Source: a bacterium
GTDB taxonomy: Bacteria > CLD3 > SB21
DNA length: 64,000 bases
Direction of reading: 5' to 3'
Assembly (NCBI GenBank): GCA_013360215.1
Contig: JABWCP010000006.1
Span: forward strand, 1-64,000
The notes under the pieces are model-generated. The model was not told the origin of the DNA. It did no database searches and saw only the letters and a program-made list of their open reading frames with translations. This document shows positions 20,088 to 63,673 of this stretch, in pieces. Both the position numbers and the translations under genes were made by a program. Every line of letters starts with the position of its first letter. Position 1 is the first letter of the stretch.

Positions 20088-21809
20088 TTATGGTGATGAT
20101 AAAATGCTTTGGCGAATGCGTAATTGTTTTTCCGTCGGAGCGGCGATTTCTTTAATGCTCACCGTCGGTTTTTGGGAAGCGACGATGGTTCCTTTGAGTG
20201 CTATAGGTTTTCCGTTGCGTTGAACCATGAGGCGTACCGATTCGCCCACGCTGAGCGATTCGAGCGCCTCGATGCGAGTCCGAATACCGTCCATCGTCGT
20301 AGGTAACGTTTGTTCCTGAATAGACGTGACAATATCTCCGGATTGCAAGCCCAATGCAAAAGCGGTTGAATTTTCAGACACCGATTGGACAACTAATTTT
20401 CCACCGGCACTTACATCCCAAAACCAACCGTGGGCCGGTGTATAGATGATATCATAGGCCAACCCCGCTTTTTCCAAAATCTCCCGCACCGGCAAAGGTT
20501 TCCCGCCGGCAATGTAGTGCGAATAAAACGAAGTAAAATCAACACCGGTGAACTGTTTGATGGTCATGATGAGCGTTTTGTCATCATAGGGTTTGTCTTT
20601 TTTTCCGAAGGCACGATGCATGCGCACCATCAGACTATCCATCGAAACCGCGTTATCCGTTCGATCGCGCATCTCAATATCCATAAGCCATGCCGTCAGC
20701 GAACCCTGTGTGTACATAGCCGGGGCAACGCCGATCTCCGATGCGTTCCGGCTGAGCGTCTCTAGATTGGCCGAAGGATTTTCAGCGGCAATATCGCGAA
20801 ACGTATTATAAAAAACTTTTTTCGATAAAAGCCCTGTACGCATCAGCGTAAGCTGCGCATAATATTCAGTAACGCCTTCGATAAACCAAAGGTTCTGTAT
20901 TCGTAGCGGTGCTTGATAGTTGATGATATGTAGTTCTTTGGGATGAAAACGTTCCGGATTCCAACGATGGAAAAATTCATGAGCCAGTACGCGAATCAGG
21001 TACGATGAACGCAAATTGCGCTGACTCGCGAAAGGCGGTAAGTAATACGATGACGCACGCGTGCTTTCCAAAGCACCGTACCGGCTGCCCGCTGCAAAAA
21101 AATTATATAAAAAATAATACGCTTCACTCGGACGATCGTCAAATAAGCGATTTTGGTAACGTATAATGGTTTTGGCAAGATTCAAAAGCGTGTCGGTTTT
21201 TATGTCCGTTTCGCTATTGATGACAAAATGATAATCCGTGCTATCCAGTGTAAAACGGAAAGCTTCGATAGGCCATGTACCCAAAAGCGCCGGCGCATCC
21301 ACCAGTTCATCGTAAGAACGCGCCGCATAACGGAAGTCGGAAATGCGTGACAGTGGCGTCCATACGCGCCAACCACAGGGAAGCTGAAACTCGACTTGAC
21401 AGGCTTCCGTTTGATAACCCTTGATGTAGCCAAATACGCTCGGACCATTATAAAAAAATGTCGAACGATCCATAGAGTTCAATGTGGTCGGTAATACAGG
21501 CACACTGTCTTCGGGGATGTCATGAATGCGGTAGGTGATGCGTGCGAGTTGGCGTGCGTTTTTGACAAACCATTCGTTATTATTGAGGCGTGAAACAGAT
21601 ATTTCTTTTCCTTTTATGTCCCAAGCTTGCACACTGTCAACCCAACGCCCGTAGTCCACGATACGATAGTTTCCGGGTGACCATGCCGGCATACAAAACG
21701 TTGCCGATTTGAGTTTGATTCCGGTGAGCGTGAGCGTGACGTAACCTTGATCGGAGGACGGACGGGGAATATCAAGCCGATACTGAAAGCGGGGCGTTTG
21801 AGCCGTCAA
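20088..21809 (-). CDS. M61-family aminopeptidase with PDZ domain
   Basis: A glycyl-aminopeptidase-like M61 metallopeptidase of 573 residues from the TTG at 21809. The zinc motif is VLAHEFFHRW (about residue 278), with the downstream Glu in WFIEGVTEYYAQL. A C-terminal PDZ domain (residues 455-545) has VVQSVSENSTAFALGLQSGDIV. Immediately upstream in frame the codons read IRIIFIFISAGLLTAQ, a good signal peptide core. The only start for it would be a CTG at 21848, seven bases after an AGGGG ribosome binding site. That start seems likely and would make this a periplasmic or secreted enzyme. It follows the glycogen-synthase-like gene closely. Confidence 0.9.
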   Translation of the reverse strand: MTAQTPRFQYRLDIPRPSSDQGYVTLTLTGIKLKSATFCMPAWSPGNYRIVDYGRWVDSVQAWDIKGKEISVSRLNNNEWFVKNARQLARITYRIHDIPEDSVPVLPTTLNSMDRSTFFYNGPSVFGYIKGYQTEACQVEFQLPCGWRVWTPLSRISDFRYAARSYDELVDAPALLGTWPIEAFRFTLDSTDYHFVINSETDIKTDTLLNLAKTIIRYQNRLFDDRPSEAYYFLYNFFAAGSRYGALESTRASSYYLPPFASQRNLRSSYLIRVLAHEFFHRWNPERFHPKELHIINYQAPLRIQNLWFIEGVTEYYAQLTLMRTGLLSKKVFYNTFRDIAAENPSANLETLSRNASEIGVAPAMYTQGSLTAWLMDIEMRDRTDNAVSMDSLMVRMHRAFGKKDKPYDDKTLIMTIKQFTGVDFTSFYSHYIAGGKPLPVREILEKAGLAYDIIYTPAHGWFWDVSAGGKLVVQSVSENSTAFALGLQSGDIVTSIQEQTLPTTMDGIRTRIEALESLSVGESVRLMVQRNGKPIALKGTIVASQKPTVSIKEIAAPTEKQLRIRQSILSSP

Positions 21810-24594: not shown

Positions 24595-25269
24595 ATGGAG
24601 GGTATTCAAACTACGGTCAAGTTCGCCGGTCCTGGCGATAGCGTCGCTGTTATAAAGGTCGGAGGGTACATTGATACGACGACGTCATCCGAACTGGAAC
24701 GTACGCTAGGCTCTTTGCTCAAAAAGAACCAACACCGTATTGTGGTAGATCTTGGCGATGTGGATTATATCAGTTCCGCAGGCTGGGGTATTTTTATTTC
24801 TGAAATCAAGGGTATCAAAGAAAATAGCGGCGATCTTAAGCTAGTTCGCATGATCCCCGAAGTGTATGAAGTTTTTGAATTACTCGAGTTTCATTATATT
24901 CTCAAAGCGTACGATACGCTGGACGAAGCCGTGGATGCCTTTGTCAAAGAGTCCGGCGGATCCATGTCGGCTAAACCGAAAGACAGCACTCAAACTATGC
25001 AAGCGGCATCGGTTGCCAAACCCGTAACCGCGGCGCCTGTTACTAAACAGGCTTCGAAACCGGCCGACGAGGCGGAAGACGAAGAAGATAATACACCGGC
25101 CACAACCCAAGGCGACGAAACCCCGGATGAATATCTTGCACGTGCGGTGCGTCAATATCCGACCTTGAGCGCTTGGCAGTTGAAAAAAGTACTTATGACC
25201 TCCGATTTCGGTTTTACCAATATGGGTTGGTTTGAAATTAGAAAAAAAATGAAGTCCGTTCGCCGGTAA
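24595..25269 (+). CDS. STAS-domain protein with an unknown C-terminal module
   Basis: A 224-residue protein. Residues 5-110 are a STAS (anti-sigma-antagonist) domain: VIKVGGYIDTTTSSELERTL, then IVVDLGDVDYISSAGWGIF, with Ser-Ser in the phosphorylation loop. A Thr/Ala/acidic linker follows (about residues 115-175). The last 45 residues (DEYLARAVRQYPTLSAWQLKK and on to KKMKSVRR) look like a compact basic helical module that I do not recognise. STAS proteins act in partner-switching signalling. No anti-sigma kinase or phosphatase is adjacent. It is followed 8 bases later by the M1 peptidase gene. GAGGA precedes the ATG. Confidence 0.85.
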   Translation: MEGIQTTVKFAGPGDSVAVIKVGGYIDTTTSSELERTLGSLLKKNQHRIVVDLGDVDYISSAGWGIFISEIKGIKENSGDLKLVRMIPEVYEVFELLEFHYILKAYDTLDEAVDAFVKESGGSMSAKPKDSTQTMQAASVAKPVTAAPVTKQASKPADEAEDEEDNTPATTQGDETPDEYLARAVRQYPTLSAWQLKKVLMTSDFGFTNMGWFEIRKKMKSVRR

Positions 25270-25277
25270 ATATTTTT

Positions 25278-28200
25278 ATGCATATTTTGTATTTGAAAAG
25301 TCTCCCGATCCGTTCGCGAGGCTTTTTTATTTTAGGGGTAGTATTTTTTTTCGCCTCACAAACCGCGCGGAGTATAGGCCAGTCCTATCTTCCGCGATGG
25401 CAACAAAAAATACATTATGTAATGGATGTTGATCTCGTCCCGGCGACCGGCATGCTTACCGGCCGACAAAAAATTATCTATACCAATAATTCGCCCGATA
25501 CACTGCACGCTTTGCATATGAATCTCTATGTTAATGCATTCCGCAAAAACAGCCGTATGCATCGTTACCACGAGGAGCGGGATAAATATTACGGCGGCAG
25601 TCTGATCTCGTATGTACCGGAGGCCTATCTGGGTTATAGCAAAGTACAAAATATTCGGGACGAACTTGGTCGCCTCTTATCACAACGTGAAGACGATACG
25701 TTACTGGAAATAACTTTAGCGGAGGCTATTCCACCGGGCGGTGTTTGTACGCTGACGCTGGATTTTGAGGTGAAAATTCCCGCACAAATTCGGCGCATGG
25801 GTCGTTTCAACCGGGAAGGCGTGAGCTTTTCCATAGCTCAGTGGTACCCCAAGTTGTGCGTTTATGATCATCGCGGATGGCATAAGAATTATTATCTTGC
25901 TCGTGAATTTTTTGGTGAATTTGCCACGTGGGACGTCAGCATCACCTTGCCCGCACACTACATCGTCGGCGCCAGCGGCCATCTGACCAATGCCGATAAC
26001 ATCTATGCTATGATGATGAGCGAACCCGAAAGCACTTCAATGGATCGCGTTTTACCGTCAAACGGCAACCAGGATTCCATACCGGAGGGGGTCGAGTCCT
26101 TGCAACGCAACCTCGCTGAAATTACGCGACAACAGTCGGTGACAGTGCCAAACCGCACATGGCGCTACCATGCAGAGGATATACATGACTTTGCTTTTGC
26201 TGCCGATCCCGACTATAAAGTGGAAATGTTTGATCATCGGGGCGTGCGTGTCAATTTATTGTGTCTGCCTGATGTCGAACAACGATGGGCTCCTATGAAG
26301 GAATGGGTAACGAAGATTATTGATTACATGGAAGCGCATGTTGGACGTTACCCGTATCCGGAGCTGACCGTTGCGCAGGCCGGCGACGGGGGGATGGAAT
26401 ATCCAAATATTGTTTTTATTACCGGACGCCGAGGAAATTTTAGCCTTGCCAGTGTCACGGCACACGAATTGATTCACAATTGGTTTTATGGTTTGCTGGC
26501 TAACGATGAGACACATGAGGCCTGGTTTGATGAGGGCATCACGTCTTATTATACGACGCGTCTTATGGAGCATTTATTTGGCCGGTATGCCAATAGGGAA
26601 TACGAAACCGAATTTCAAAAAAAATGGTTTCCTCGCGAGGATGCGCGCATCGCTACATTTACCGGTTGGGCGCATTGGGTAAAGCAGGGTTACGAGGAGC
26701 CCGTGTTGACGCATTCGGACTACTTCAAAAGCGATCCGTCGTACTCTATGGCAACGTATTACAAAGGTCAGATTTTTATGAATGCGCTCGAATATCGCTA
26801 CGGGCGTGAACGCCTTGACAGTCTCATGCGTGATTTTTTTGAAGTATACCAAAAGCATCATACGCTGACTGACGATTTTAAGCGTTTTCTCGAGTATAAA
26901 ACCGGTGAGAAATTAGATTCGTTATTTGATCAATGGCTCAATACAATAGAATATTGCGACTACGGCATAGCGCACATCACTAATTCAAAAAACGCTGCCG
27001 GTCAAAATCAGGTAAAAGTCAAATTAGTTCGTCGCGGCGCAATCACAATGCCTGTGGATTTGTATTTGAAACTGACCGACGGAAGCTGGACCGGCGTGCG
27101 CATTCCGGCGCGCCACGATGACCCGAATAAGCCGGGGTTGAAACGATGGACCGAATGGCCCGCATCCGATCCGACGTATACGTTGACGATGATAACTGAT
27201 TTGCCGGTGGACCGCGCTGAAATTGATACATCCGGACGGCTGCCGGATATCTTTCGGATGAACAATCGCAGTGGTTTCCTCCCGAAAACAGAGTGGCACT
27301 GGCAGCGTCCGCTGGGTATTTTACCGACGGCAGATACGTACGTGATCGAACATCGGCCGTCTTTGTGGTACAATCAGACGGATGCCGCCCGCATCGGTTG
27401 GAAAATGAGAGGCAAATGGGCCACCGATGAACACCAAATAAAAGCAGGGGTATACGCAGGCACCCGAAGCAGGACTATTGATTATGAAATAACATATAGT
27501 ACGCCGATGTATAGCATAGGCAGGCAAGTTTTTGTTGACATGGCTTCATACAAACTTGACGGCGTGTTTCAGAATGAATTATCGTTTCGTAAGAAGTGGT
27601 TCGGCGGTGCTTACGAACGTCCTCCGTATTATGACGTTTCATTAGGTCTTCGTACGTCGCGTCGTTTTAATTCGACGTATCTGAATCCGGGAGTATTTTG
27701 GGAAAAAGGGGACGTCCATGTTTTGACGGCGTCTTTACAATGGCAGCCACAAATCTTTGACAGTCCTCGTCTGAAAATGACCGTCGAAACTTCGACTTTC
27801 GCCTCGGATTATACATTTACCAAAGCCGATTTGACATATTACAAGCCTTGGGTACTAAAACGAAATGTGGCTACGCTGGAAAGTCGAATCTTTGCAGGAT
27901 TAGCTGACGGAAACGTGCCTTTGCAAGATCAGTTTTATCTGGCCGGCGCTTCGCCACGCCAAATGTTTGTTAATCCTTGGTACCGATCGGGAGGTACGCT
28001 GCCTGAAAAAGGCTGGCGTGATGCATCCGGTCAAAGGCATATCTATTACGACGGTCAAGGCAGTATGGCCGGATATGCGGATAGTAATGCGTTGGGTATG
28101 CATATTATTGCGATTAATCTGGATTTGAAACTGACTAACCCTCTAAAACCATTAATTAAAAAAGAAATTTTATTTATTACTCAATTTGAACCGATGCTGT

Positions 28201-28439
28201 TTTTTGACGCCGGCGGTGTATCCGGTAAAAGCGGAAAGCGGAGGCATTCTATACCCTCACTGGTTTTTGATGCAGGTTGTGGATTTCGGTATCTGCCCGC
28301 GTTTATTCCTTCGTGGATGGGTAATTATGCGATTAAAGCCGAATTTCCTCTATGGGTCAGCGATCCTTCGCTGGCCGGGCAGTCCGGCAAATCATGGGCT
28401 TTCCGTTGGTTGATAGGTTTCGAAAATGCGATTCGCTAA
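25278..28439 (+). CDS. M1-family metallopeptidase with a C-terminal Omp85-like barrel
   Basis: A 1053-residue secreted protein with an N-terminal signal sequence (GFFILGVVFFFAS). The beta-sandwich and thermolysin-like parts of an M1 aminopeptidase occupy about residues 40-560. HELIHNW at residue 396 and EAWFDEGITSYY supply the zinc ligands, with the GGMEYPN-type substrate motif seen as GGMEYPNIV. From about residue 690 to the end the chain has alternating beta-strand patterns and the Omp85 marks VPLQDQFYLAGASPRQMF, MLFFDAGGV and DAGCGFRYLP. This suggests an outer-membrane barrel carrying the peptidase. The last residue is Arg rather than Phe. It lies 8 bases after the STAS gene. Confidence 0.85.
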   Translation: MHILYLKSLPIRSRGFFILGVVFFFASQTARSIGQSYLPRWQQKIHYVMDVDLVPATGMLTGRQKIIYTNNSPDTLHALHMNLYVNAFRKNSRMHRYHEERDKYYGGSLISYVPEAYLGYSKVQNIRDELGRLLSQREDDTLLEITLAEAIPPGGVCTLTLDFEVKIPAQIRRMGRFNREGVSFSIAQWYPKLCVYDHRGWHKNYYLAREFFGEFATWDVSITLPAHYIVGASGHLTNADNIYAMMMSEPESTSMDRVLPSNGNQDSIPEGVESLQRNLAEITRQQSVTVPNRTWRYHAEDIHDFAFAADPDYKVEMFDHRGVRVNLLCLPDVEQRWAPMKEWVTKIIDYMEAHVGRYPYPELTVAQAGDGGMEYPNIVFITGRRGNFSLASVTAHELIHNWFYGLLANDETHEAWFDEGITSYYTTRLMEHLFGRYANREYETEFQKKWFPREDARIATFTGWAHWVKQGYEEPVLTHSDYFKSDPSYSMATYYKGQIFMNALEYRYGRERLDSLMRDFFEVYQKHHTLTDDFKRFLEYKTGEKLDSLFDQWLNTIEYCDYGIAHITNSKNAAGQNQVKVKLVRRGAITMPVDLYLKLTDGSWTGVRIPARHDDPNKPGLKRWTEWPASDPTYTLTMITDLPVDRAEIDTSGRLPDIFRMNNRSGFLPKTEWHWQRPLGILPTADTYVIEHRPSLWYNQTDAARIGWKMRGKWATDEHQIKAGVYAGTRSRTIDYEITYSTPMYSIGRQVFVDMASYKLDGVFQNELSFRKKWFGGAYERPPYYDVSLGLRTSRRFNSTYLNPGVFWEKGDVHVLTASLQWQPQIFDSPRLKMTVETSTFASDYTFTKADLTYYKPWVLKRNVATLESRIFAGLADGNVPLQDQFYLAGASPRQMFVNPWYRSGGTLPEKGWRDASGQRHIYYDGQGSMAGYADSNALGMHIIAINLDLKLTNPLKPLIKKEILFITQFEPMLFFDAGGVSGKSGKRRHSIPSLVFDAGCGFRYLPAFIPSWMGNYAIKAEFPLWVSDPSLAGQSGKSWAFRWLIGFENAIR

Positions 28440-28471
28440 AACGTCGCTTATTTAAAAAAGAGGGGATATGT

Positions 28472-28675
28472 ATGGCTCAACACGTAAAAACTCCGTTTAA
28501 AATACTTGTGATAAAGACACTGATGATCGTATGGCAAAAAAAAATTGCCATACGCTATTGGTGCAGAACTTGTAACAAAAAGCATGATGACATCATACGA
28601 TATGGCGAAAAATACCCTAAATTTTCATGTTCGGCCTGCGGTAGCAATAATATCATTGACCTAAAGTATGAATAA
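28472..28675 (+). CDS. Small zinc-ribbon protein
   Basis: A 67-residue basic protein. The N-terminal half is a hydrophobic/basic helix (KTPFKILVIKTLMIVWQKK). The C-terminal half has two Cys pairs, CRTCNKKH and CSACGSNN, spaced as a zinc ribbon. The start at 28472 follows GAGGGG. It lies 32 bases after the M1 gene. The function is unknown; RNA or protein binding is possible. No close family is recognised. Confidence 0.6.
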   Translation: MAQHVKTPFKILVIKTLMIVWQKKIAIRYWCRTCNKKHDDIIRYGEKYPKFSCSACGSNNIIDLKYE

Positions 28676-32454: not shown

Positions 32455-33840
32455 ATGTCCATATTAGGTACTGCAGAAAATCCGCTTCGTGTGGCGGTTA
32501 TCGGTTCCGGTCCATCCGGTTTTTATGCGGCGGATCATCTTTTAAAACAAAAAGATGTAATCGTAAAAATTGACATGTACGACCGGCTTCCCACGCCTTA
32601 TGGGCTTGTTCGCGGTGGTGTGGCACCGGACCATCAAAAAATCAAATCGGTCACCAAAGTGTATGAGAAAACGGCGGCGCATCCGATGTTTTCTTTTTAT
32701 GGAAATGTGGAGCTGGGACGCGATATAACACGTCAGGAATTGAAGGCGCGTTATCATGCTTTGATTTATGCCGTAGGTGCACAAAGTGATCGCCGCATGG
32801 GCATTCCCGGGGAAGACTTGAACGGCAGTCATCCGGCTACGGACTTTGTAGCCTGGTATAATGGCCATCCGGATTATCGCGATCTGTCATTTGATCTTTC
32901 CCAAGAGCGCGTTGCTATTATCGGAAACGGAAATGTTGCGGTGGATGTGGCGCGTATTTTAGCCAGCAGTATTGAAGAGCTGAACAAAACCGATATCGCG
33001 GATCATGCACTAACCGCCTTGCAAAAAAGCAATGTAAAAGAAATATACATGATCGGTCGCCGCGGCCCGGCGCAAGCTGCATTTACAAATGCGGAGATCA
33101 AAGAGCTGGGGGAATTGGAAGAATGTGCGATCACTATTCCGGGTACGGAGAGTGCTCTGGACGAAGTATCCAAAAAAAACTTGGAGGCGCATCCGGATTC
33201 CGGTGTTTCCAAAAATCTTGAAATTATGAAGGATTATCTGGATAAAACGACCGACGGTAAAAGAAAAAAAATGGTGCTTCGATTTTTATGGTCACCTGTC
33301 GAACTTAAAGGGCGGGATGGTGTAGCGGACATCGTTTTACAAAAAAATATCTTAGTGCAAGATGCCGATGGCAACATCAAAGCCAAGGGAACGGAAGTTC
33401 AAGAAACGATTCCTGTCGGTTTGGTATTTCGTTCGATCGGTTATAAAGGCGTTGCGCTCAAAGATGTTCCTTTTGACGAAAAGAAAGGTATCATACCGAA
33501 TGCACATGGCCGGGTAACCGAATTAAATGGTACCGTCATTGTGGGTGAATACACGGCGGGATGGATCAAACGCGGCCCATCCGGAGTAATCGGTACTAAT
33601 AAACCGGACGCGCTGGAATCGGTGAATATGCTTTTGGAGGATGTGAAGTCCGGTCATATTCATCCCATTGATCAAACTGTATCTACCGCAGAATGGCTTC
33701 AATCGAAGGAAATTCGTTTTGTAACATTTGCCGATTGGTTAAAAATCGATAAAGCCGAAACAGAAAAAGGAATTGCTTCCGGAAGACCGCGCATCAAATT
33801 TACACGCATTGAAGATATGCTTCATATTGCCGGCGTATGA
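32455..33840 (+). CDS. FprA-type ferredoxin/adrenodoxin-NADP+ reductase
   Basis: A 461-residue FAD and NADP(H)-binding reductase. The FAD motif VAVIGSGPSGFYAADHLL lies at the N-terminus, the NADP motif IIGNGNVAVDVARIL near residue 155, and the C-terminal FAD contact as TAGWIKRGPSGVIGTNKPDA. This is the adrenodoxin-reductase/FprA family, which passes electrons between NADPH and a ferredoxin. The start was moved from 32419 to ATG 32455, which follows ACGAGG. Its stop overlaps the start of the solute-binding protein gene by four bases (ATGA). Ferredoxin partner is not encoded nearby. Confidence 0.92.
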   Translation: MSILGTAENPLRVAVIGSGPSGFYAADHLLKQKDVIVKIDMYDRLPTPYGLVRGGVAPDHQKIKSVTKVYEKTAAHPMFSFYGNVELGRDITRQELKARYHALIYAVGAQSDRRMGIPGEDLNGSHPATDFVAWYNGHPDYRDLSFDLSQERVAIIGNGNVAVDVARILASSIEELNKTDIADHALTALQKSNVKEIYMIGRRGPAQAAFTNAEIKELGELEECAITIPGTESALDEVSKKNLEAHPDSGVSKNLEIMKDYLDKTTDGKRKKMVLRFLWSPVELKGRDGVADIVLQKNILVQDADGNIKAKGTEVQETIPVGLVFRSIGYKGVALKDVPFDEKKGIIPNAHGRVTELNGTVIVGEYTAGWIKRGPSGVIGTNKPDALESVNMLLEDVKSGHIHPIDQTVSTAEWLQSKEIRFVTFADWLKIDKAETEKGIASGRPRIKFTRIEDMLHIAGV

Positions 33841-35486
33841 TGATTAAAACCATAGCGGTTTGTTTCATATCGGGCTTTCTCTTGAGTTGTGTTCCAGCGC
33901 AGCAAGAGGAGCGTATAACTGTCGCTGTGCGCGCCGAGCCGGATGCTGTCAATCCCGTCACACACGCTTCGGCTTTTTCCAGAATTGTTTGTACCGGTAT
34001 TTTGCCGCGTTTGTTGGAGTCGGAATGGGATTCACTGCAAGGTCGTGTCGTGTACAAACCGTTTCTCGCTAAATCGTATTCTTTCTCCGACGATCGCCGT
34101 GTTTTGACTTACCACTTACGATCCGATTTTTTTTGGGAGGACGGCGAACGTGTGACGGCGCATGACATTCGCTTTACGTTTCAAATGATCGCCCATCCGG
34201 ATGTAGCCAGCACAAAAAAAGAACATATACAGTATCTGACGGATGCCCTGGGATCCGTGGACCGATCGGTCATCGCGCTCAATGATAGTACGATCGAATT
34301 TCATTTTACTCGTGCCTATCCGCTACAGATTTTTGATACCAATCTTCAACCCGGATTTTTGCCCTTTCACATTTTAAAAGATGTTAAACCCTCCGAGTTG
34401 CGGCGGCACACTATCAACACCATGCCGTTATCCGGAAGTTATTACGACATAACCATCTGGAAAAAACAAGACTATATCGTGCTGGAACGCAACACGCGTA
34501 GTCCGTATCAGGCCGCTTCCCGCCAAATCGTGTTTCGTATTATTCCCGAATATACTACGCGGTTGACTGCTCTTAAAACGGGTGATGTGGATGTGATGTA
34601 TCCGATTATGCCGCAAGACGTGGCGGATTTACGCAAAACCAATCCGGAACTGCGTATTGAGGCGATGCGTTCGCGATATTATGATTATGTCGGATGGCAA
34701 AATATAGATCAGCATATATATCATGCATCGTCCGGTAAAACTATTCAACCGCATCCGTTGTTTGGTTCAAAATACGTACGCCGGGCATTGACGATGGCGA
34801 TTCACCGTCAGGAAATCGTAGATGGGTTTATGGGGGAATTTGGGCGTGTGGCGATCACACCGATTTCACCGGTCTTTCGTTGGGCTGCCAATGATACGTT
34901 GAGTCCGCTGCCTTATGAACCCGAAGAATCGAAGCGTCTTTTAGCCCAGGAAGGTTGGATTGATCGTGACGGCGACGGCATCGTAGAAAAAAACGGCAGA
35001 GCTTTTTCATTTGAACTATACTACGATGCGGGTAACGACCGGCGCCAATTTGCGGCGCTTATTGTACAGCGTGATCTAAAAAAAATTGGCATCCGCTGCG
35101 ATGTACGAACAGCCGAAACAAATGTGTTTTATGATGACGAGTTGAATAAAAAATACGACGCTTTTATCTCCGGCATCGGCGTGCCGCTTATGATTGATCC
35201 GACAAGCGAGTGGAGTTCGGATTTGAAAAAAAATCCGTATAACGATATTTCATATCAAAATCCCAACGTAGATGCTTTGATTGAGGCCGGCAAGCGCGTA
35301 AACAATCCCGAAGAGGCAGCGCCGATGTGGCGTGCTTTGCAGGCGATCCTGCACGAGGATCAGCCGGCGACTTTTTTATATTGGCGTGATGAATTAGTAG
35401 GGTATAATCAAAAAATAAAAAATTCGCGCACCAGTCTGCTGGGGGAAATCGACAAATTCTGGTTGTGGGAAAAAGTTACGAATTAA
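33837..35486 (+). CDS. Peptide-type ABC transporter substrate-binding lipoprotein
   Basis: A 549-residue solute-binding protein of family 5 (DppA/OppA type). The signal peptide ends in lipobox LLSC (Cys about residue 17), so it is membrane-anchored. Family marks are HASAFSRIVCTGILPRLLE, LTYHLRSDFFWEDGERVTAHDI, and RRALTMAIHRQEIVDGFMG. It should bind oligopeptides or similar solutes. No permease or ATPase gene follows; the next gene on this strand is far away, so it may share a transporter encoded elsewhere. It overlaps fprA by four bases, an odd pair that implies coupling but no obvious shared function. Confidence 0.92.
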   Translation: MMIKTIAVCFISGFLLSCVPAQQEERITVAVRAEPDAVNPVTHASAFSRIVCTGILPRLLESEWDSLQGRVVYKPFLAKSYSFSDDRRVLTYHLRSDFFWEDGERVTAHDIRFTFQMIAHPDVASTKKEHIQYLTDALGSVDRSVIALNDSTIEFHFTRAYPLQIFDTNLQPGFLPFHILKDVKPSELRRHTINTMPLSGSYYDITIWKKQDYIVLERNTRSPYQAASRQIVFRIIPEYTTRLTALKTGDVDVMYPIMPQDVADLRKTNPELRIEAMRSRYYDYVGWQNIDQHIYHASSGKTIQPHPLFGSKYVRRALTMAIHRQEIVDGFMGEFGRVAITPISPVFRWAANDTLSPLPYEPEESKRLLAQEGWIDRDGDGIVEKNGRAFSFELYYDAGNDRRQFAALIVQRDLKKIGIRCDVRTAETNVFYDDELNKKYDAFISGIGVPLMIDPTSEWSSDLKKNPYNDISYQNPNVDALIEAGKRVNNPEEAAPMWRALQAILHEDQPATFLYWRDELVGYNQKIKNSRTSLLGEIDKFWLWEKVTN

Positions 35487-61210: not shown

Positions 61211-63673
61211 TCAGTATTTTTTCTTTTTTCTTAATCTTCCGATGAAAGGGGATACGATAATAATCGCGAAAGGAATGAACAAAAAAGCGATAAACTCATA
61301 CGGCACGCGGTGCAAGGGAATTGTCTCAGGGTTGCCCCAGAGCATGAGCCCCGCCCAGTAATAAGGCGATTGTTTCAGTTCATACGCCTCATTGATATAT
61401 TTTAGTTTCGCTTGCCGTAGCGCTTCTGCACGCGTAAGTCCGGATGCAATACCTTCATAAAATGCACTCATAATCATGGCTGTTGCTTCGTCATCAATAT
61501 CCCAAGCGGACATGATCAGGCTGTATGCACCAGCATACGCAAAAGCTTGATTGAAACCCATGAGCCCTTCGCCGGCGACGGGTTTGCCCAAGCCGGTGCG
61601 GCAGGCGCTTAAAACGACAAGGTCAGCATCAATACGAAAGTCATAGATGTCATACATTTTAAGAGAACTGTGATCCGAAAAAAAAATTTGTGAATACATC
61701 GGTTCGATATCGGATACGACAGCGTGAGTAGCGAAATCTATGATTTTATAATTAGCGATATGGGATATTATTTCATTTACTGAAAGATGGTTAACCCAAT
61801 ATCGGCTTTTATCAAATGTGTTTGAGCTGCTAATCATCTGTTTTTCAGTGTAAGGCAGATCACTTCGTAGTGAAGATGAAGCAAATGCAAATCCAGCATA
61901 GTGGCGAGGTGCGTTTGAAAAACGACGAACGCGATCTAACCAAAAACTGGCTGATATGGCGTAAACTATAGGATAATGTCGAAGCAAAATATCGTTAGGT
62001 TTATCTGATGAAAGTAACAATTCAAAGGGCAAACGGGTTAATGGCCCGTCTGGGACAACGATGAGTGTTTTATTTTTATCAAGAATGTCTTCAAAAGGGT
62101 GAATCAACGCATTGTATAATTTTCTGCTCGCCACTTCGTCCGTGGTTTGATTTGTACAGACAGTTTCAGCCCATCGGATTAAACTATCTTTACGGATTCC
62201 TGAAATATTTATTTTCATCGTATCGCCAGTAATAAAAAACGAAATCAACGAATCTTCACAGAGGCCGTACTCTATTAGTTGGTAGGACTGACCCAATGCG
62301 TCCTTTAAAGCGTTCGAGGATTGATTTGTATTTTCAAATGGTGATTTCGCAGAATCCTCCAAAAAAAGTAAAGAGTCTAACAGGTGAACTCGTTCGGTAT
62401 CCCATATGCGGGCCTCATGCAGAGCTATGGGATGATTTTGATATTGGCCAAAGATATTTCGAATGCGTCGATCAATTGAAGATAAACTGTCTGATAAAGC
62501 TTTCAGTGATCTATTACCGCTAAGTCGGAGCAGTTTGGATGAGTACAGTGATTTAGTATTTTCAATGAGGTTAAATGCGACTTGAGTTTTTCCTTGTCTG
62601 GCATAAAAACGCGCGGCATGTAGATAAGCAGGGACGATATTTTTAGAAATAGCAACAATGGAGATACCTTTATTTAATTCAGCCTTTTTAGTAGCTAACA
62701 TGATAGAGCGACGGTACAAGCTGTCGGCTTCTTCTATTTTAGATTGTGATTCGGCCACTCTAGCTAATCCGGAACAAGCCGTCCAGTTTTCCATTAATAA
62801 ATTCAATGCAGTTTTATAAGAAACAGAGGCTTTATCCCATTTGCCGATACGTTCATAATAGTATCCCAATTCGCTGTACACGACATCTGCTTCGCTTTTC
62901 AACGTTTTTATTTCTTCAACGGATCGTAGTTGATTCTTTATTGCTTCTTCGTATTTGTTTTGTTTGTAATACAATTCAGCGATGCCCGAATAAGCGCTTA
63001 ATTTACGATCATTTGGCTGAATATGGAGCTTAGAACTCATTGCCAAAACTCGATTAAAATACTCTTCCGATTTTCGAAACTCATTAGTTTCTCTGAAAAT
63101 TCTTCCCATCTGAAGGTAGGTCGAGCTTAATTCATACTCATCATGTAGTCGCTCAAAAAAAATATTACATGAATCAAAACAAGCTAGTGCTTCGCGGTAA
63201 TTACCAAGATGAAAATTGACTAATCCTAATCGGTTAAGTGTAGAGTAATACGGATGCGGTTTCTTTTTAAACACGGAATCAGCGCGTGCAATTTTAATTG
63301 CCTCATGTAGGAGTAGTAGAGAAGAGGAATATTCGTTGAGCATCAGTTTGTAGTGCGCTTCAAAAGATAAAGCATAAACCAGCCAATCAGGATAATGTGT
63401 ATTTAAAAATATCTGTTGAGACTTACGGGTAGGATCAATCGCAGAAGCATAGTCGTTAATATTTTGATAAAACACTCCTATCCGAAGATATTCAATACCG
63501 CAACGCATAGAGTCAGTTCGGTTGCTCAATGATGAAATCAAACTATCCAAAACATGCAACGCACCGCGTGGGTTGCTTTCATTCAGCATTTTTTGGATTG
63601 GCTTGAAATCTTGTGATGAAGCTTTTGTGAATACAACCAAACAATACATCACAAAATAAAGGAACTTAATCAT
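61211..63673 (-). CDS. Secreted TPR-CHAT protein with membrane anchor
   Basis: An 820-residue protein. An N-terminal signal peptide (FLYFVMYCLVVFTKASS) is followed by about ten TPR-like helical repeats up to residue 400, including YSTLNRLGLVNFHLGNYREA and AYSGIAELYYKQNKYEEAIK. A CHAT (caspase-like) domain occupies about residues 500-790, with the His in IDFATHAV (about residue 645) and the Cys in LSACRTGLG (about residue 687). A C-terminal membrane helix (FIAFLFIPFAIIIVSPFIG) and a Lys/Arg tail end the chain. CHAT proteases cut specific partners on a signal. The signal peptide suggests a periplasmic location, unlike the cytoplasmic CHAT effectors of defence systems. The gene is divergent from a secreted protein at 63751. 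Confidence 0.88.
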   Translation of the reverse strand: MIKFLYFVMYCLVVFTKASSQDFKPIQKMLNESNPRGALHVLDSLISSLSNRTDSMRCGIEYLRIGVFYQNINDYASAIDPTRKSQQIFLNTHYPDWLVYALSFEAHYKLMLNEYSSSLLLLHEAIKIARADSVFKKKPHPYYSTLNRLGLVNFHLGNYREALACFDSCNIFFERLHDEYELSSTYLQMGRIFRETNEFRKSEEYFNRVLAMSSKLHIQPNDRKLSAYSGIAELYYKQNKYEEAIKNQLRSVEEIKTLKSEADVVYSELGYYYERIGKWDKASVSYKTALNLLMENWTACSGLARVAESQSKIEEADSLYRRSIMLATKKAELNKGISIVAISKNIVPAYLHAARFYARQGKTQVAFNLIENTKSLYSSKLLRLSGNRSLKALSDSLSSIDRRIRNIFGQYQNHPIALHEARIWDTERVHLLDSLLFLEDSAKSPFENTNQSSNALKDALGQSYQLIEYGLCEDSLISFFITGDTMKINISGIRKDSLIRWAETVCTNQTTDEVASRKLYNALIHPFEDILDKNKTLIVVPDGPLTRLPFELLLSSDKPNDILLRHYPIVYAISASFWLDRVRRFSNAPRHYAGFAFASSSLRSDLPYTEKQMISSSNTFDKSRYWVNHLSVNEIISHIANYKIIDFATHAVVSDIEPMYSQIFFSDHSSLKMYDIYDFRIDADLVVLSACRTGLGKPVAGEGLMGFNQAFAYAGAYSLIMSAWDIDDEATAMIMSAFYEGIASGLTRAEALRQAKLKYINEAYELKQSPYYWAGLMLWGNPETIPLHRVPYEFIAFLFIPFAIIIVSPFIGRLRKKKKY

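Follow-up and report, generated by a model that had tools for sequence, protein, structure and literature searches.

In the window, the whole stretch of 64,000 nucleotides that was analysed, a single gene on the forward strand encodes a protein of 1053 residues in which an M1 peptidase is followed by a predicted Omp85-type outer-membrane barrel. The features at this locus are listed below with the evidence on which each was placed; A4 is an alignment of 15 full-length homologues.

24595-25269, + strand: gene for a STAS-domain protein (PF01740, E 2.9e-17), ending 8 bp upstream of the fusion
25278-28439, + strand: M1 peptidase-Omp85-type barrel fusion, 1053 aa (ORF, co-linear homologues)
25278-25385, + strand: putative signal peptide, residues 1-36 (translation by eye; model helix 16-36)
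25404-25982, + strand: M1 N-terminal beta domain, residues 43-235 (model strands; fold match beginning at residue 40-43)
26145-26948, + strand: M1 catalytic domain, residues 290-557 (PF01433 on 367-553; model)
26388-26405, + strand: GGMEYP, GxMEN-like, residues 371-376 with E374 (M-E invariant in A4)
26463-26477, + strand: zinc motif HELIH, residues 396-400 (translation; A4; HExxH in 67/70 copies)
26532-26534, + strand: third zinc ligand E419, in DEG (invariant in A4)
26757-26759, + strand: Y494, the expected catalytic Tyr (invariant in A4)
26955-27227, + strand: beta domain C-terminal to the catalytic one, residues 560-650, with no helical domain after it (model; fold matches)
27339-28436, + strand: predicted 16-stranded Omp85-type barrel, residues 688-1053 (models, fold searches, hhalign)
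27912-28100, + strand: loop 6, a long loop joining strands 11 and 12, residues 879-941 (model, motif table)
28200-28220, + strand: FFDAGGV on strand 13, residues 975-981 (translation, model)

The N-terminal part of the protein was recognized as an M1 peptidase. Pfam placed PF01433 on residues 367-553 (E 1.8e-18; 67.4 bits against a cut-off of 27.7), the top fold match of the unit was the M1 aminopeptidase 1z1w (Z 32.6), and the solved structures closest by sequence were the Colwellia cold-active aminopeptidase and LTA4H. The zinc ligands and the catalytic Tyr of M1 enzymes are complete (HELIH at 396-400, E419 and Y494), while the exopeptidase motif GxMEN reads GGMEYP, with the Glu kept and the Asn replaced by Tyr. 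With these catalytic residues, the unit is probably active as a zinc aminopeptidase. According to the fold matches and the model, the M1 fold ends at about residue 655 in a beta domain; after it, the model secondary structure lacks the helical C-terminal domain that LTA4H- or PepN-type enzymes have, and the first barrel strand follows about 38 residues later, across a linker that holds the residues D657, N662 and N663, all invariant in A4.

The HExxH motif was kept in 67 of the 70 fusion copies read, a number in which L043 and L054 are apparently one gene counted twice. The zinc site was lost and the barrel retained in the remaining three, namely L113 (RLVAQ), L133 (REIAR) and L134, which had no detectable M1 match. 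These are possible pseudopeptidase versions, and they suggest some importance of the barrel even where catalysis is lost.

The full-length AlphaFold2 model, built on A4, had a mean pLDDT of 76.6. Because the fold search with this whole model listed almost only M1 enzymes, the barrel was folded separately from alignment A5, which comprises residues 660-1053 and 28 relatives. The resulting model showed 16 long strands (pLDDT 87.7, pTM 0.86), and in the AlphaFold2 models the barrel strands span residues 688-1051. All 50 matches listed by Foldseek for the barrel model were BamA, TamA or SAM-complex chains (best E 5.2e-10), and all 50 rows listed by VIA-align were likewise Omp85 proteins, BamA, TamA or Sam50, with a Z of 21.0 over 299 residues and an rmsd of 4.1 to BamA 8bnz_A. 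In the model FFDAGGV sits on strand 13, and strands 11 and 12 are joined by the long loop that holds the RGY position, an arrangement that matches the BamA layout. Loop 6 opens with VPLQDQFYLAGASPRQMF (880-897) and closes with MAGY (930-933) in the RGY/RGF position, and GFRYLP occupies residues 1002-1007 of the ORF translation.

Sequence profiles were less sensitive to this barrel. For the window C-terminus, Pfam gave no Omp85 match even at E 10, NCBIfam recognized nothing and PHROGs returned no match; PF01103 was found at E 0.01 or better in three of the 29 family barrels (best 4.8e-8), the window barrel not being one of them. Direct alignment of A5 with an Omp85-barrel alignment by hhalign gave 96.7% and E 4.1e-10, a value from a single comparison and not a database E-value. 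The family profile A3 weakly found other proteins in the phylum of G017 (E 6.5e-9 to 1e-5), and when five of these barrel candidates were searched with Pfam, PF01103 was above the cut-off in L063, L064, L065 and L067, with L069 having weak ShlB and POTRA matches only. The structure model, the PF01103 matches in three of 29 relatives, the A3 profile matches and the hhalign comparison together outweigh the missing Pfam match, and we conclude that the C-terminus of the fusion is, as modelled, an Omp85-type barrel. The sequence-only reading had proposed this architecture from the ORF at 25278-28439 and its motifs VPLQDQFYLAGASPRQMF, FFDAGGV and GFRYLP, all of which are in the translation. Its M1 peptidase was supported by PF01433 and by the intact catalytic residues, with the signal peptide remaining putative, and the structure prediction that it called for at the C-terminus returned the barrel. 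The Omp85 profile search, which it had also named as a check, held for a few relatives and failed for the window protein itself.

The stretch between signal peptide and barrel consists of the M1 unit in the model and the fold match, and no POTRA profile matched the fusion at E 1 in Pfam. Pfam, searched to E 1, returned neither the patatin domain of PlpD (type Vd) nor PF00149 of the Omp85 'Metallo' proteins, which is the calcineurin-like phosphoesterase family.

Comparison of loop 6 across the family showed variation at the (V/I)RG(F/Y) site, where the window protein has MAGY. Arg-Gly is found there in 44 of 71 aligned family segments, and the arginine is lost in the window protein's own clade. 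The spacing from FYLAG to RGY has a median of 36 residues across the family, and most copies conserve an RSRGTLP-like stretch within the loop. The FYLAG and RGY positions are adjacent in Omp85 proteins of the POTRA type, for example L063 and L064, and the WD40-type L067 carries a loop 6 insertion of comparable size.

The fusion recurs widely, as was shown by searching other genomes for it, a check that the sequence-only reading had proposed for related genomes. Full-length relatives with 50-53% identity were found in four other genomes of the window's family, and more distant ones, at 37% and 29% identity, in two distant genomes. Within the window's phylum, the barrel ends a frame of 1044-1081 aa in five of nine genomes; 33 of 132 genomes in the phylum of G017 had a match at E 1e-20 or better, and the fusion is carried by 18 of 40 in the phylum of G212. 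The match reached the barrel in 20 of the 386 genomes of a broad sample, from 12 family-level groups, and among the carriers known by name are MAG contigs of KSB1, Zixibacteria, 'Bacteroidetes', Flavobacteriales and Balneolales. A scan of genome contigs with the single protein found no relatives, which were found with alignment A2. The M1 profile was followed by the barrel profile in one frame at 21 of 24 loci; of the three exceptions, L081 and L083 are fragments. M1 relatives without the barrel also occur, for example L002, L015 and L016; the best M1 tree needs two changes for the fusion, and a single clade was not rejected (AU p 0.128). The lack of a Pfam match at the window C-terminus would fit an artefact, a chance fusion or misassembly without any barrel, but dozens of co-linear copies in unrelated genomes rule this out, and a confident barrel model whose fold matches Omp85 proteins only also stands against it, so that its probability is negligible.

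Gene-context analysis showed that the STAS-domain gene, probably co-transcribed with the fusion, also adjoins it in L009, L036 and L037; in the neighbourhoods compared, neither L012 nor the other phyla had it next to the fusion. Across phyla, no partner gene was common to fusion loci outside the window's own family, and promoter and terminator scans gave no more matches than shuffled sequences. A small zinc-ribbon-like ORF (28469-28675, +) comes straight after the fusion, and a related ORF follows the fusion in L012. Other genes in the window include an M61 glycyl aminopeptidase with a PDZ domain (20088-21809, -), a second zinc peptidase 5 kb from the fusion; an SBP_bac_5 family solute-binding protein (33837-35486, +) 5 kb downstream, within a stretch that is syntenic in the window's family and from a protein family that includes oligopeptide-binding proteins; and a TPR and CHAT protein (61211-63673, -) with a caspase-like protease architecture. 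Elsewhere the window genome has nine PF01103 places, eight of them above the cut-off, which is in keeping with a diderm. One 1043-aa Omp85 frame of this genome (G000:C2:74644-75153) may have an architecture like that of L067.

To place the fusion among known systems, we compared it with both parent families. Like LTA4H, the Colwellia cold aminopeptidase, ERAP1 and the two-domain Deinococcus M1, it has the N-terminal beta and catalytic domains and the HExxH...E, GxME and Tyr residues; unlike them, it has a membrane barrel instead of the helical C-terminal domain, and GGMEYP for GxMEN. It resembles BamA, TamA and Sam50 in its 16 strands, in loop 6 between strands 11 and 12, in FxDxG on strand 13 and in its fold (Z 19-21), but sequence identity to them is about 10-14%, no POTRA was detected, the M1 unit is in the POTRA position and loop 6 has a long insertion before the RGY position. 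In the predicted structure, therefore, the barrel replaces the canonical helical domain of M1 enzymes, and the M1 unit replaces the POTRA domains of Omp85 proteins.

Among enzyme-bearing Omp85 proteins, PlpD and the other patatin-like members likewise combine, in a single chain, an N-terminal enzyme domain with an Omp85 barrel at the C-terminus; their enzyme is a patatin lipase and not an M1 peptidase, and PlpD has POTRA, which was not found in the fusion. The enzyme domain of PlpD is periplasmic only (PMC11116518). The WD40-like Omp85 proteins (Heinz & Lithgow; L067) share the large extramembrane N-terminus without POTRA and a similar loop 6 insertion, but carry a beta-propeller and a different peptidase fold family member, not M1. 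In L067:2-3070, and also in L066, Peptidase_MA_2, a PD40/WD40 propeller and an Omp85 barrel are combined, which is a second peptidase-like/Omp85 architecture. The Omp85 'Metallo' group (Heinz & Lithgow 2014) is named as a metalloprotease-Omp85 fusion, yet its domain is PF00149, not M1; the group is called metalloproteases in PMC4104836 and the label is repeated in PMC11116518. Ten Omp85 subfamilies are distinguished in Heinz & Lithgow 2014 (PMC4104836), and the M1-barrel fusion is not among them. Our literature search, with most subscription journals outside its reach, found no description of an M1-Omp85 protein, and the sequence-only reading likewise knew of none. The fusion thus looks like an overlooked subfamily of outer-membrane proteins, and public databases probably list many of its members already, named as M1 proteins.

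Tethering of the peptidase at the outer membrane would follow from an architecture of signal peptide, M1 peptidase and Omp85-type barrel. On balance, we consider it probable that the protein is a zinc aminopeptidase anchored in the outer membrane, its enzyme part facing the periplasm. The signal peptide would export the protein and the 16-stranded barrel would insert into the outer membrane, leaving the M1 catalytic unit beneath the barrel in the periplasm, in the usual place of POTRA. There the enzyme would trim N-terminal residues of peptides at the inner face of the outer membrane, either peptides taken up or products of protein turnover, and the fusion would work without a dedicated partner protein. 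The activity, its periplasmic location, its substrates and its independence of a partner are what we infer, and they agree with the retained M1 residues, the Omp85-type barrel and the lack of a conserved partner gene outside the window's family. Both ends of Omp85 barrels face the periplasm. This topology, together with the exclusively periplasmic enzyme of PlpD, makes the periplasmic anchored aminopeptidase the best reading, and tethering at the inner face appears likelier than surface display or transport coupling. PlpD is the closest described enzyme-Omp85 fusion, but its enzyme domain is not homologous to M1, and the comparison is one of analogy. The three of 70 zinc-less copies that keep the barrel count against an anchored aminopeptidase, as the barrel may serve some separate function.

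Surface display, in which the barrel would carry its own M1 domain across the outer membrane to digest external peptides, appears unlikely. An enzyme N-terminal to an Omp85 barrel is the layout for which autotransport was first proposed, type Vd autotransport once having been suggested for PlpD (PMC11116518), and the linker, at about 38 residues, might have the length needed to pass through the pore; PlpD, however, proved to be periplasmic, and the invariant D657, N662 and N663 suggest a structured junction. It is rather improbable that the barrel opens for peptides that the peptidase trims at its inner mouth on entry or exit: Omp85 relatives do translocate polypeptides (PMC4104836) and the copies read always pair the M1 unit with the barrel, but gene neighbourhoods show no sign of an energy source or partner, and PMC4104836 describes barrels of the BamA and TamA type as closed towards the outside. 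We gave similarly little weight to an undescribed Omp85 subfamily in which M1 replaces POTRA and trimming is coupled to passage across the outer membrane, so that gate and protease would form one chain. A role in outer-membrane protein biogenesis or quality control, as a BAM/TAM-like factor that would bind or clear stalled proteins through its M1 unit, would fit a barrel fold nearest to BamA, TamA and Sam50, a binding function in the three possible pseudopeptidase copies, and the action of E. coli periplasmic zinc proteases on stalled OMPs (PMC13067283). No POTRA domain was found, however, and the genome has nine other Omp85 places. M1 enzymes, moreover, target free N-termini and typically not large stalled proteins, and we regard such a role as improbable.

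We regard the M1-barrel fusion as a further enzyme-bearing form of Omp85 proteins. These proteins are known mainly as insertases and translocases, and PlpD showed that the scaffold can bear an enzyme. A second enzyme-bearing subfamily, this time with a protease, present in many phyla and mostly retaining its zinc site, would turn enzyme anchoring by Omp85 barrels into a general theme. The fusion also offers a testable case of whether barrels of this kind have any transport function, and genes now likely named after their M1 domain only would gain a predicted location.
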